Source of the DNA: Candidatus Gastranaerophilales bacterium | GTDB taxonomy: Bacteria > Cyanobacteriota > Vampirovibrionia > Gastranaerophilales > Gastranaerophilaceae | DNA length: 64,000 nt | NCBI GenBank assembly: GCA_947624645.1 | Contig: CANQLG010000007.1 | Span: forward strand, 1 to 64,000 | Direction: 5' to 3' | In this document: positions 3,606 through 52,443 of the stretch, piece after piece | Numbering within the stretch: the stretch's first letter is position 1 | Layout: every line of letters begins with the position of its first letter | Program-made: the position numbers and the translations under genes | The notes under the pieces: generated by a model | Databases searched by the model: none | Told to the model about the DNA's origin: nothing | Seen by the model: only the letters and a program-made list of their open reading frames with translations

Positions 3606-4976
3606 ATGGCAGTAAGACAAAGACAACATGAACAAGACCCTATGGTAAGACGCACAAATTTTGATGCGGTAGAGTCTAATTTAACTGATGAACAGGCAAA
3701 ACTTGAAGCATCAAGATGTTTAAATTGTAAAAAACCCAGATGCGTTGAAGGATGCCCTGTTAATATAAATATTCCGGGATTTATACACGAATTAAAGGAA
3801 GGTAATATAGAAAAAGCAGGCGAAGTTATAAGAGAATCAAGCCTGTTGCCGTCCGTATGCGGAAGAGTTTGCCCTCAAGAAAGACAATGTGAGGGTAAAT
3901 GCGTATTGGGTATTAAATCAGAACCAATCGCAATAGGAGCATTGGAAAGATATGTAGGTGACGCTACAACCGCACAGATTGGTGAAATAAAAGAATCAGG
4001 TAAAAAGGTTGCAATTATAGGCTCAGGCTGTGCCGGAATTACGGCTGCTGCCGATCTTAGACGTGCAGGACACGAAGTCGTAGTTTTTGAAGCATTACAT
4101 AAGCTTGGTGGTGTTTTAAGATACGGCATCCCTCCATTTAGGCTTCCGAGAACTTTTTTGGACAAAGAAATTTCTAACCTGAAAAATATGGGTGTAAAAT
4201 TTGTTACTAATGTTGTTGTAGGTAAGTCTATTACTGTTAAACAATTAAAAGATGACGGATTTGATGCCATTGTTATAGGCTCAGGGGCGGGACTTCCAAA
4301 AATGATGGGAATCCCCGGTGAAAACTTAAACGGAGTATATTCCGCTAATGAGTTTTTAACCAGAGTTAATTTAATGCAGGCAAACTTGGAAGAAACTCCT
4401 ACTCCTATAAGAGTTGGTGAAAAAGCTGCGATAATCGGCGGCGGTAATGTTGCTATGGATGCTGCAAGAGTTGCCGTAAGAATAGGTTTTAAAGAAGTTT
4501 ATATTATGTACAGACGTACCGAAGCTGAACTTCCCGCTCGTTTGGAAGAAATTCGCCACGCAAAAGAAGAAGGTGTTATATTTAAATTCTTACATGCACC
4601 TAAACAAATCTATAATAAAGAAGGTTATGTAGGCGGAATGCAGTTTGAGATAATGGAACTTGGTGAACCTGATGAATCAGGCAGAAGAAAACCTGTTCCG
4701 ACAGGAAAAACAATGGATATAGATGTCGATACCGTTGTTGTAGCGTTAGGTACGGGTCCTAACCCCACAATACAAGCATCTATGCTCAAAGATAATATGG
4801 ATTTGGAAACTAACCCTAAAGGTTATATTATAATTAATGCTGAAACGGGTGAAACATCAATAGATGGCGTTTATGCAGGCGGCGACGTTGCACCTACCGG
4901 TTCTTCTACCGCTATTAACGCTATGGGCGCAGGTAAACGTGCCGCAAAAGCTATTAATGAATATCTTGCTAAATAG
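3606..4976 (+). CDS. gltD: NADPH-dependent glutamate synthase small-subunit type oxidoreductase
   Basis: 456-aa flavoprotein of the GltD/homotetrameric GltA family. The N-terminal Fe-S module has two cysteine clusters, CLNCKKPRCVEGCP (about 38-51) and CGRVCPQERQCEGKC (about 85-99). Two dinucleotide-binding folds follow: FAD GSGCAGITAA (about 138-147) and NAD(P)H IGGGNVAMDAAR (about 277-288), then the C-terminal FAD motif GDVAPTGSSTA. The role would be transfer of NADPH electrons for glutamate formation. No large glutaminase subunit is in the window, so it may act alone or as an NfnB/sulfide-dehydrogenase-like subunit; sequence alone does not settle this. A clear terminator follows. Confidence 0.85.
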   Translation: MAVRQRQHEQDPMVRRTNFDAVESNLTDEQAKLEASRCLNCKKPRCVEGCPVNINIPGFIHELKEGNIEKAGEVIRESSLLPSVCGRVCPQERQCEGKCVLGIKSEPIAIGALERYVGDATTAQIGEIKESGKKVAIIGSGCAGITAAADLRRAGHEVVVFEALHKLGGVLRYGIPPFRLPRTFLDKEISNLKNMGVKFVTNVVVGKSITVKQLKDDGFDAIVIGSGAGLPKMMGIPGENLNGVYSANEFLTRVNLMQANLEETPTPIRVGEKAAIIGGGNVAMDAARVAVRIGFKEVYIMYRRTEAELPARLEEIRHAKEEGVIFKFLHAPKQIYNKEGYVGGMQFEIMELGEPDESGRRKPVPTGKTMDIDVDTVVVALGTGPNPTIQASMLKDNMDLETNPKGYIIINAETGETSIDGVYAGGDVAPTGSSTAINAMGAGKRAAKAINEYLAK

Positions 4977-7334: not shown

Positions 7335-7433
7335 AAAATAAACTTGTAAACTCTACCAAATAAATAATAAATACAGATATAAAAGGAGGGCTACAAGTAA
7401 AAAACGGCACTATAAAAATAAATTAACTCAAAC

Positions 7434-7539
7434 CATGACAGCACATGGGTTTACATGATTTAAATTCAAATTAACAATTTTTAACAAGTACATACGATTG
7501 AACCTCAAAACATGTAAAAGCATGACAGGACATGAGTTT
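7434..7539. repeat. Imperfect 19-bp direct repeat upstream of the omega-like gene
   Basis: CATGACAGCACATGGGTTT (7434-7452) recurs as CATGACAGGACATGAGTTT (7521-7539) with two mismatches, 87 bp apart, centre to centre. Further CATG words occur between them. The second copy abuts a TTGACA. These may be operator sites for an unknown regulator. Confidence 0.55.
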
Positions 7540-11331: not shown

Positions 11332-11341
11332 CCCCCCCCCC
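11332..11341. repeat. C10 homopolymer in promoter region of WG-repeat gene
   Basis: Ten consecutive C in an otherwise A/T-rich spacer, followed by GAGG. It occupies the place where the -35 hexamer and the spacer start would be, relative to the -10 at 11355-11360. Poly-C of this length is prone to slippage. An assembly or sequencing error in length is possible. Confidence 0.85.
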
Positions 11342-11384: not shown

Positions 11385-12728
11385 ATGAAAAAGTTTTTTG
11401 TTTACATTCTTATTGTTTTTATTGTTAATTTGTTTTTTCCAACTTTAAGTGCTTATGCAAAACATACATATTCTTATAAAAGTTTTAAGGGTATTGATGC
11501 GGTTTTAATAAAAGATAAAACTACTAAAAGATACGGATTATCTAAAAATAACAAGATAATTGTTTTCCCTGATGCATATGTTGATAATTATACCGATTGG
11601 AAAATATTAAATTATAAAGGGCAAAAAATGATAATGCTTAAAGGGTATTATTATTTGATATACAGTCCTGATAATATATTTGCGGATATATTTCCCGCTT
11701 TTTATTCAGCTAATAATGAAAAAAATAATATAATATTTCAAAATTTCCCTAACTCAGGAGCTAACAGATATACTCCTAAAAAAATGATTACAATCAGAGA
11801 TAATATTTTTACTTCTGATTATATAATTATTGATGATGATAAATTAGATTTTTATGATTTTAATTCCGTTTTAGGTTCACTTTACAGAATTGCTTTATTT
11901 AAGGATGTTAATAATCCTAAAACAAATGTTCCTTCATATATTGAAGAAGATGTAAAAATTGAAAACGGTAAAATGTTTGTTACTTTTAAAGATATTATAA
12001 TCCCCTATCACAGTGTAACTTATCTGCCTAAAAACATACATTACGATTCAACTTCGGGTATCTCGACCGATGAATTTTTAAATCAGAATTTAAGTAAATC
12101 ATATTCTGATATGTGTTCTAAGGAACATTATTGTTTTAAAAATTATCCATTAAATGCAATGATTGTAAAAAATGGAAAAAATCGAACAAAAAACTTATAT
12201 ATATTTGAAAACGGAATAAAAACAAAATGTATTGAAGACACTTATTCCGGTTTTTATTTTTCGGATAAAAATTCCGTAATAAATAAAAAAGCTCATATAA
12301 ACATATTTTTTAATTCGCAAAATTATATAATCGCCAAAAAATATGACAAATGGGGAGTAATTGATAAAAATAATAAACAAAAAGTTCCTTTTATCTACGA
12401 TAAAATATTGCCTGTTGGCGGATACATAAAGGAATCAATAGGGGATAAGTCAAATGAATTTTATTATATCGGGCATACAAAGTTATACAATTTGTTTATA
12501 GTTACAAAAGGTAATGAAACAGGGGTTATTGATGATAAAAACAATATAGTTGTTCCGTTTTATAAAGTTAACTTTTTAAATTATCCTTTAATTAGTTATA
12601 ACTCATTAAGCAGAAATTTTAAACCGAATAAACATCCAATAAAAAGAACTACAAAAGCTATCGGTGATTTCTTTTTTACTATATTTGCCTATATGATGTT
12701 TCCGTTTTTTTGGTTGGCTTTTCGGTGA
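11385..12728 (+). CDS. Exported WG-repeat protein (first paralogue)
   Basis: 447 aa. Signal peptide or N-terminal anchor at 1-25 (MKKFFVYILIVFIVNLFF, ending near SAYA). Repeats of the WG/KWGVID type are visible late in the protein: KYDKWGVIDKNNKQKVPFIY and GNETGVIDDKNNIVVPFYK; earlier ones are degenerate. A hydrophobic C-terminus (FFFTIFAYMMFPFFWLAF) may be a second membrane anchor. Function unknown; WG repeats form beta-hairpins often found on surface proteins. AAAGGAAG precedes the ATG. Expression would be under the C10-bearing promoter. The next gene is a paralogue. Confidence 0.75.
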   Translation: MKKFFVYILIVFIVNLFFPTLSAYAKHTYSYKSFKGIDAVLIKDKTTKRYGLSKNNKIIVFPDAYVDNYTDWKILNYKGQKMIMLKGYYYLIYSPDNIFADIFPAFYSANNEKNNIIFQNFPNSGANRYTPKKMITIRDNIFTSDYIIIDDDKLDFYDFNSVLGSLYRIALFKDVNNPKTNVPSYIEEDVKIENGKMFVTFKDIIIPYHSVTYLPKNIHYDSTSGISTDEFLNQNLSKSYSDMCSKEHYCFKNYPLNAMIVKNGKNRTKNLYIFENGIKTKCIEDTYSGFYFSDKNSVINKKAHINIFFNSQNYIIAKKYDKWGVIDKNNKQKVPFIYDKILPVGGYIKESIGDKSNEFYYIGHTKLYNLFIVTKGNETGVIDDKNNIVVPFYKVNFLNYPLISYNSLSRNFKPNKHPIKRTTKAIGDFFFTIFAYMMFPFFWLAFR

Positions 12729-25306: not shown

Positions 25307-25981
25307 TTATTTTTTTCTGAAAATTATGGATCCCGGTATTGTAATTGCCATATCTATTGACAATTCCAAATCTTGAATGTGTTTTGGCAGATGGTTAAAA
25401 AACGGACGATAAGCTTTAGGGTTTCTGTTTTCGCTTACTCTTAAAATTTTCATTCTGTCCATTGCATAATCCCAAAATACTTGAGCATCAAGAACTTTAG
25501 GCATATAATTTTTATATGCGCCTAAGGCACCGCATTCTAAATCTTCAATAATATAATACCCCCCCCCATTTAAAATTGGGAAAAGCATTTCAAAACTTAA
25601 TCTCTGTTCGCCCCAAGCATGTGAGCAATCATCTATTATACATTTTATATTGCTAAATTGGGTTAATTTGGCAGGCAAATCGTCTGCTGTTGCATTTGAA
25701 CATATAAAATTAATATTTTCTTCTTCCAAAGTTTTTAAATTAGGATTTAAATCTACGCCTACAATATGAGCTTTAGGAAAATATTCTTTCCACATCCTTA
25801 ATGATGCACCCGTAAAACAACCGAGTTCTGCCAGTGTAAATTCTTCATTCACCAATTCTTTTAAAAATAACTCATAATATTTTAAGTAATCATGTCCCTG
25901 ATATGTGTTATCTTGATATAAAAAAGTACTTGCTTTATCCGTGTTATATTTTTTACCCAAATTATCTAAAATATTTTCCAT
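25307..25981 (-). CDS. SAM-dependent methyltransferase, copy 2
   Basis: 224 aa, tandem paralogue of the gene at 24517. Same SAM motif LAELGCFTGASLRMWKEYFP and IDDCSHAWGEQ. Differences include ATADDLPAK, NGGGYYIIEDLECGALGAYK (copy 1 ISGG...DFEWG) and a two-residue insertion near YKNYMPK. The three glycines in NGGGYY come from a G9 run in the coding strand (C9 at 25559-25567 on the plus strand), absent in copy 1. A one-base slip there would truncate the protein near residue 145. Its upstream region closely matches that of copy 1. Confidence 0.85.
   Translation of the reverse strand: MENILDNLGKKYNTDKASTFLYQDNTYQGHDYLKYYELFLKELVNEEFTLAELGCFTGASLRMWKEYFPKAHIVGVDLNPNLKTLEEENINFICSNATADDLPAKLTQFSNIKCIIDDCSHAWGEQRLSFEMLFPILNGGGYYIIEDLECGALGAYKNYMPKVLDAQVFWDYAMDRMKILRVSENRNPKAYRPFFNHLPKHIQDLELSIDMAITIPGSIIFRKK
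25559..25567. repeat. C9/G9 homopolymer within methyltransferase copy 2
   Basis: Nine C on the plus strand (GGG GGG GGG in the gene). The paralogue has TCCTCCCGA at this site, so the run arose after duplication. Length is currently in frame. Confidence 0.8.
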
Positions 25982-51708: not shown

Positions 51709-51737
51709 TTGTATAAAGAATTGTAATTTGATATAAT
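51709..51737 (+). promoter_or_regulatory. Promoter of the pilin-like gene
   Basis: TTGTAT (51709-51714), 17-bp spacer, TATAAT (51732-51737). GAGG ribosome site follows and ATG is at 51761. Confidence 0.55.
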
Positions 51738-51760
51738 AAAGAAAAAGAGGAAAAATTATT

Positions 51761-52443
51761 ATGGATAAACGAAATACCCCCCCCCCGAGGCGTTAAAACG
51801 CCGTAACGGCTTTACTTTAGCGGAAGTTCTCATTACTCTGGTTATTATAGGGGTTATTTCGGCAATAACTTTATCTTCCGTATTACAATCAACCGGAAAA
51901 CATGAAGTTATTTCAAGATTAAAAAAATCATATTCTGTTTTAAGGAATTGGCAAACACGAGCACAAGTTGCTTATGGGGATTATAATTCTTGGGATACTG
52001 CGCAAGAAATAGGTGTAAATGAATATTTTAACAAATATATTAAACCTTATTTTAACATTCAAAAAGTTTGTACTTCGTTAGAAGAATGCGGTTATAAACA
52101 AGTATATTTTTGTAATGGCACTAATGCTAATGGTATATTGGTTGCATCGGACAGAATTTTTTTTACTACAATTGATGGGTTTGCTTTTTCCTTTGTTTAT
52201 AAATCTGAAGGGAATTGGCAAGCTATAAGGGTTGATATAAATGGAGCCAAAGGTCCTAACAGGCAGGGACGTGATATTTTTGAGTTAGATCTGACCGAAG
52301 ATAAGGGTTTTCAACCGTCAGGCTATAAATACAGTATGCAACAAATTAATTCCAATTGTTCGAAAAGTTCTTTGGGAGATTATTGTTTGGCAAAAATAAT
52401 GAGGGACGGATGGAAATTCAGCAATGATTATGGCTGCTGGTAA
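51761..52443 (+). CDS. Type IV pilin/pseudopilin-like protein, frameshifted at a C10 tract
   Basis: ATG 51761 with an AGAGGAAAA ribosome site begins MDKRNTPPP then a C10 run; in the given sequence this frame stops at 51791-51793. The frame starting at GAG 51787 continues for 218 codons: EALKRRNGFTLAEVLITL, a canonical prepilin leader with the G/F cleavage site and glutamate +5, a hydrophobic helix (VIIGVISAITLSSVL), then a globular domain with cysteine pairs ending NDYGCW. That frame has no start codon of its own before the tract (TAA at 51766). With 8 or 11 C the frames join. So either phase-OFF, a pseudogene, or a read error. An ORF starting at 52138 is only its 3' part. Confidence 0.8.
51777..51786. 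repeat. C10 homopolymer in pilin-like gene
   Basis: Ten C followed by GAGG, the same 14-base word as at 11332-11345. It is placed between the start codon and the prepilin leader; a change of +1 or -2 restores the reading frame. Confidence 0.9.

Follow-up and report, generated by a model that had tools for sequence, protein, structure and literature searches.

The gene at positions 51761–52443 of the window (the whole 64,000-nucleotide stretch of DNA analysed here) is best interpreted, with a probability of roughly 0.8, as a phase-variable gene for a type IV pilin-like protein that would be switched by slipped-strand mispairing at a cytosine tract close to its start, and as one of a large repertoire of such genes that are OFF by default. 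Slipped-strand phase variation was already the reading of a first-pass annotation of this locus, and all runnable sequence tests point to a switch and away from gene death or a slip in assembly; the single gene described there is a member of a genome-wide and family-wide system. The interpretation draws on the anatomy and frame logic of the locus, intact pilin bodies under selection, the coding constraint between tract and cleavage motif, recurrence in many genes and species, an excess of OFF states, and the presence of pilus-type ATPases and a prepilin peptidase. Switches of this kind are already known; the scale of the pilin repertoire, the default-OFF register within a disposable leader and the host group appear to be new as far as the searched literature shows.

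At this locus (Table 1), a tract of ten cytosines breaks the frame between a start codon and an intact prepilin. The frame read from the ATG with ten cytosines encodes MDKRNTPPPRR followed by a stop codon, and from 51769 the frame of the prepilin (NGFTLAEVLITL...DYGCW) stays open as far as its stop codon at 52441–52443. The two are joined only at 8 or 11 C, the product then being 227 aa long. A search of the prepilin frame from the preceding stop codon to the motif found no ATG, GTG or TTG. Re-reading of the ATG, the tract and the frames thus bears out the start codon, coordinates and 8-or-11-C joining rule proposed at first pass, together with the claim that the downstream frame has no start of its own. 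It is plausible, judging from the nucleotides, that the promoter upstream of the ATG is intact; a consensus scan detects nothing above chance at 51732–51737. As expected of a contingency locus, the repeat at 51777 is longer than chance would allow, the gene is intact on either side and joined in one register only, and selection acts on it.

Table 1. Features of the window at the pilin locus and at the two other tracts of the same system
Feature	Position	Strand	Basis or remark
C10 tract, 44 nt upstream of a WG-repeat-like ORF (11385–12728)	11332–11341	+	Probable promoter-region switch of the same system
G9 (sense strand) within a methyltransferase-like ORF (25307–25981), in frame as assembled	25559–25567	-	Same system
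Possible -10 box TATAAT, with a weak TTGTAT 17 nt upstream	51732–51737	+	Read from sequence
Putative ribosome-binding site GAGG, 10 nt 5' of the ATG	51747–51750	+	Read from sequence
Start codon and first leader codons (MDKRNT)	51761–51776	+	Translation; layout ATG-RATAAACSAAATA common to the paralogues and the G021 orthologue
Proposed switch, a C10 tract; OFF at this length, with 8 or 11 C joining the frames	51777–51786	+	Sequence, frame analysis
Spacer, remaining leader in the joined frame (EALKRRN)	51787–51807	+	Translation; such spacers open in 98/98 genes
Prepilin body: cleavage/methylation motif GFTLAEVLITL, Glu at +5, long N-terminal helix, C-terminal beta domain, stop codon	51808–52443	+	PF07963, TIGR02532, structure model, dN/dS

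Profile searches with the body identify PF07963 (30 bits) and TIGR02532 (29.7 bits), both above cut-off, which together with the frame being open to 52443 agrees with the clean prepilin body noticed at first pass. The product combines a prepilin cleavage motif, a hydrophobic helix and Glu+5, and the helix is recovered in a structure model of the body (mean pLDDT 86) that consists of a long N-terminal helix and a beta domain. A search of PDB structures with the modelled body gave no fold match, the C-terminal domain included. Comparison of the body with its orthologue in the congener G021 yields dN of 0.148 and dS of 0.754 (dN/dS of about 0.2), with similar values for paralogues, so that by this measure the body is under purifying selection even though the gene is OFF as assembled. 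The genome of the window further encodes a prepilin peptidase (PF01478, contig C12) and PilB/PilT-type ATPases (PF00437, contigs C15, C31, C8 and C16). The product is predicted to be a type IV pilin-like protein or pseudopilin, a putative subunit of a surface fibre. It resembles type IV pilins and pseudopilins (PF07963, TIGR02532) in the N-terminal motif, Glu+5, the long helix and the accompanying peptidase and ATPases, but differs from them in the C-terminal domain without a PDB fold match and in the unusually long leaders, of 15–30 aa, that bear the tract.

The genome of the window (2.14 Mb in 71 contigs, 99.8% complete, with a GC content of about 32%, and 31–32% in the stretches read) contains far more such tracts than its composition predicts. 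The window alone has five C9 matches (three tracts) against 0.08 expected from dinucleotide shuffles, and the whole genome has 47 tracts of C9–C13 against about 0.2 expected from composition, a per-base expectation scaled up. In 547 kb that include these 47 tracts, runs of 7, 8, 9, 10 and 11 number 0, 4, 30, 12 and 3, respectively, with 0.045 runs of 9 expected, and A/T runs of at least 9 are below expectation. On the contig of the window, two further prepilin genes (C7:64064 and C7:87409) have C9 behind ATG-RATAAACSAAATA, and both need 8 or 11. The same tract is found at the same leader codon in two paralogues and in the G021 orthologue, and G030 also has a tract at this leader position; the lengths differ, with C10 in the window and C9 in the G021 orthologue and the paralogues, and are nearly fixed at 10 in G083, a genome of another genus. 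In C7:64064 (L003:64–776), which of the tract-bearing prepilin paralogues is the nearest, the frame breaks a second time about 40 residues into the body, and the gene may be decaying or may possess another switch.

Analysis of larger sets of prepilin genes reveals a coding constraint between tract and motif. In 545 kb of the congener G017, 73 prepilin genes were identified, 44 of which have a tract between the ATG and the motif (45 with earlier loci added); where tract and motif are at least 40 nt apart, the spacer is open in the frame of the motif in 32 of 32 cases, compared with 1 and 11 for the other frames and 7.6 expected from shuffling. For 66 genes with confident starts, pooled from several species, all 66 spacers are open, 49 genes are in the 8/11 register, and 5 of the assembled genes are in frame (p = 8e-7 relative to one third), where permutation of lengths over registers predicts 12 (p = 0.0014); both p-values assume independent paralogues, and since paralogues are related, the counts are not independent. 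G083, fetched later as a check, has 32 such genes, again with all spacers open (32/32), none in frame and 31 in the 8/11 register. For the combined 98 genes with a leader tract, the spacer is open in the joined frame in every case (98/98), 5 are in frame as assembled, and 80 are OFF at both 9 and 10 and ON at 8 or 11. Among the 66 pooled leaders the tract is 9 long in 43 and 10 long in 18; as both lengths are usual, an ON register of 8/11 leaves both OFF. Given that OFF states are commoner than the two in three of neutral drift, selection or founder effects must be added. In G083 (L226–L245), 48 of the 50 C/G runs of at least 8 are exactly 10 long, and in G017 and G000 the lengths are spread over 9, 10 and 11; the distribution in G083 is narrower than free slippage would lead one to expect, a point against the preferred reading.

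A mechanism compatible with these observations would run as follows. Slippage during replication would change the length of the C tract by one or more bases in living cells. At 9 or 10, the ribosome would stop after about 10–20 codons, and at 8 or 11 it would read through into the full prepilin. The tract would encode proline (glycine in G-type leaders) inside the leader that prepilin peptidase is predicted to cut off, and since it lies within the removed part, lengths of 8 and 11 would yield the same mature pilin. With the ON lengths one step beyond the two modal lengths, the gene would usually be OFF and one slip away from ON, and few pilins would be made per cell at once. Cells in the ON state would presumably express the pilin and assemble it into pili; the benefit might be varied adhesion, or bet-hedging in the face of phage or host immunity.

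The main competitor, although an unlikely one, is programmed slippage of RNA polymerase or the ribosome on the C/G run, so that some product would be made at all times with no change needed in the length of the DNA. Such slippage would fit the conservation of nearly all these genes while out of frame as assembled, and the shift required is almost uniform in G083. In the pooled 66 genes, however, the required shift is mixed (-1 in 45, +1 in 16, in frame in 5) rather than constant, as it nearly is in G083 alone; lengths of 9 or 10 leave other tract-bearing genes in the window's genome in frame, and tracts also occur outside ORFs, 5' of genes. An assembly or sequencing slip (the true tract being 8 or 11) or a decaying dead gene is a very improbable account. 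Assemblies from metagenomes report one length per tract, long C runs lie at contig ends in some relatives, and the second frame break in C7:64064 could reflect decay; against this, the same tract is present in the same place in paralogues and in separately assembled species. Poly-G read artefacts are rejected because the tracts are internal to contigs and occupy fixed positions in the leader, and a dead gene is rejected because of purifying selection (dN/dS of about 0.2), the open spacers and the bodies of the pooled tract genes, which span 193–320 aa with no stops.

Just as improbable is a silent reservoir, in which out-of-frame pilins would donate sequence to expressed pilins by gene conversion, in the manner of Neisseria pilS/pilE. 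The coexistence of tract-bearing and tract-free pilins in G017 would be in keeping with it, as would the independence of leader type from the tree of the bodies (see below), but the silent genes have their own starts, ribosome sites and open spacers, and pairs of G017 pilin bodies share no segment of at least 60 nt at 97% identity or more, with the exception of one of 74 nt in two neighbouring tract-free genes. The long near-identical segments typical of a pilE/pilS-type system are therefore not seen in G017, and such a system, already disfavoured, was rejected. Default-OFF phase variation by tract length remains the preferred reading.

In a survey of 192 genomes sampled across the order, in which tracts of at least 9 were counted, tracts are common in the family of the window, where a genome may contain as many as 176, and rare in six other families, whose 22 genomes have 0–6 each. 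Within the window's genus, the count ranges from 0 to more than 100, and matches to the window's pilin number 1–75 per congener. Prepilin-motif matches number 141, 138, 104, 93, 75 and 41 in six tract-rich relatives from five other genera and 7 and 5 in two tract-free congeners, the six having been picked for high tract counts, so that this is a contrast and not a test of correlation. A DNA pattern derived from G-type leaders identifies matches in 'Lapin' MAGs of Candidatus Gastranaerophilales; 2 of 21 matches (L149 and L153) are titled proteobacterium and Bacteroidales bacterium and may reflect chance or mis-binning, and a match in IMG/VR (L225) is not a prepilin and was discarded. Loss of mismatch repair does not explain the tracts, because MutS1 and MutL are encoded by tract-rich and tract-poor species alike, as well as by the genome of the window; the sole congener without a mutS match, G013, has no C9 tract.

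It is possible, although rather doubtful, that the switch is a dispersed and exchangeable module comprising promoter, ribosome site, leader, C/G tract and fixed species-specific flanks, as opposed to a tract that grew gene by gene. The similarity among tract-bearing genes of G017 reaches some 60 nt 5' of the ATG and ends at the stop codon. On the C strand, sense-C pilins, sense-G pilins and other sites have identical flanks, with TA before and GT.GC after the tract in G017 (TA-C9-11-GTNGCG) and G on both sides in G083 (G-C10-G), and both orientations relative to genes occur. Leader type in G017 does not track the phylogeny of the bodies, with 23 changes against a shuffle mean of 22.2, although this is a quick tree of divergent proteins that may be poorly resolved. 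Among the 28 prepilins of G017 without a leader tract, 18 have a tract 80–330 nt upstream, mostly within short leader ORFs of the same type; these span 22–52 codons in the longest register and end before the pilin's own start. The same tentative module would have been placed before several dozen distinct pilins; in G017 it would additionally form a separate leader ORF before pilins that have their own start. If so, a length held near 9–10 would set the whole pilin repertoire to 'mostly off', with near-exclusive display of few pilins per cell. Tract-free pilins of G017 (L095–L133, e.g., L111 and L123) have a common upstream block with the palindrome CAATATTTCATAAGAAATATTG and TATAAT.

The closest known parallel is the phasome of Campylobacter, whose poly-G/C contingency loci likewise reside in an AT-rich genome, in ORFs and promoters of surface-related genes, and peak at 9 and 10 (53% and 26% of tracts, respectively; PMC6321876), as tracts do in the window's genome and G017. 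The host here belongs to another phylum and has up to 176 tracts of at least 9, compared with 5–81 phase-variable genes per Campylobacter strain (PMC6321876); moreover, pilins dominate in the tract-rich relatives, pilins have both C- and G-sense tracts, and the OFF excess goes beyond neutral drift. Phase-variable pilus genes and pilin antigenic variation in Neisseria (PMC5084427, PMC11868660) are similar in homopolymer slippage at surface genes and in the pilus as the variable fibre, but here there are many separate pilin genes, each with its own leader switch, and gene conversion was not seen in G017. No link of Gastranaerophilales or Melainabacteria to such tracts was found in the open-access literature searched. 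The hosts are uncultured gut bacteria, non-photosynthetic relatives of cyanobacteria, in which closely related tract-free species provide natural controls. A repertoire of as many as about 140 prepilin genes within 2 Mb, together with the default-OFF register, amounts to a specific, testable model of how a commensal might vary its surface in the face of phages or host antibodies.

Beyond pilins, the tract contexts, which rest on sequence stretches chosen around tracts and prepilins, show tracts in or before mostly surface-related genes encoding GT2, GT6, fucosyltransferases, AlgX-like, acyltransferase-3, ATP-grasp, Pmp-repeat, Kelch-like and WG-repeat proteins, with in-frame and out-of-frame states mixed. 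In the genome of the window these include a FucT (GT10) gene with C13, a GT6 gene with G10 and genes for Chlam_PMP-repeat proteins adjoining tracts. Helicobacter-type fucosyltransferase and Chlamydia Pmp genes are known gene types with tracts; only the gene types coincide, and no membership is claimed. G9–G11 runs between a TTGCNN-like hexamer and TATAAT, 5' of Kelch-like and other genes (L010:1242–1250, 4113–4123 and 7429–7437; L001:6603–6612), are probable promoter-spacer switches. A second promoter-type layout, common to paralogues, is represented by the window tract at 11332–11341 and by L008:8463–8473, where C10 or C11 is followed by GAG-GAAAATTTG and a TATAAT-like sequence 5' of two WG-repeat-type genes. 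Four tandem AlgX/DHHW-like genes (L002:4738–9837) have C9 at about nt 400 of the ORF in three and C10 nearer the start in one, and their ON/OFF states differ. Both the start of contig C63 and the end of contig C30 of G000 lie within 10 bp of a C9–C12 tract, as if mixed lengths had broken the assembly, which is weak evidence. Finally, in glycosyltransferase, ATP-grasp and other genes, some tracts lie close to the 3' end (L007:8974, 12337, 17087 and 19221; L020:7314; L012:2804), and there all three frames end at similar lengths, so that switching would alter the C-terminal tail and not the ON/OFF state.
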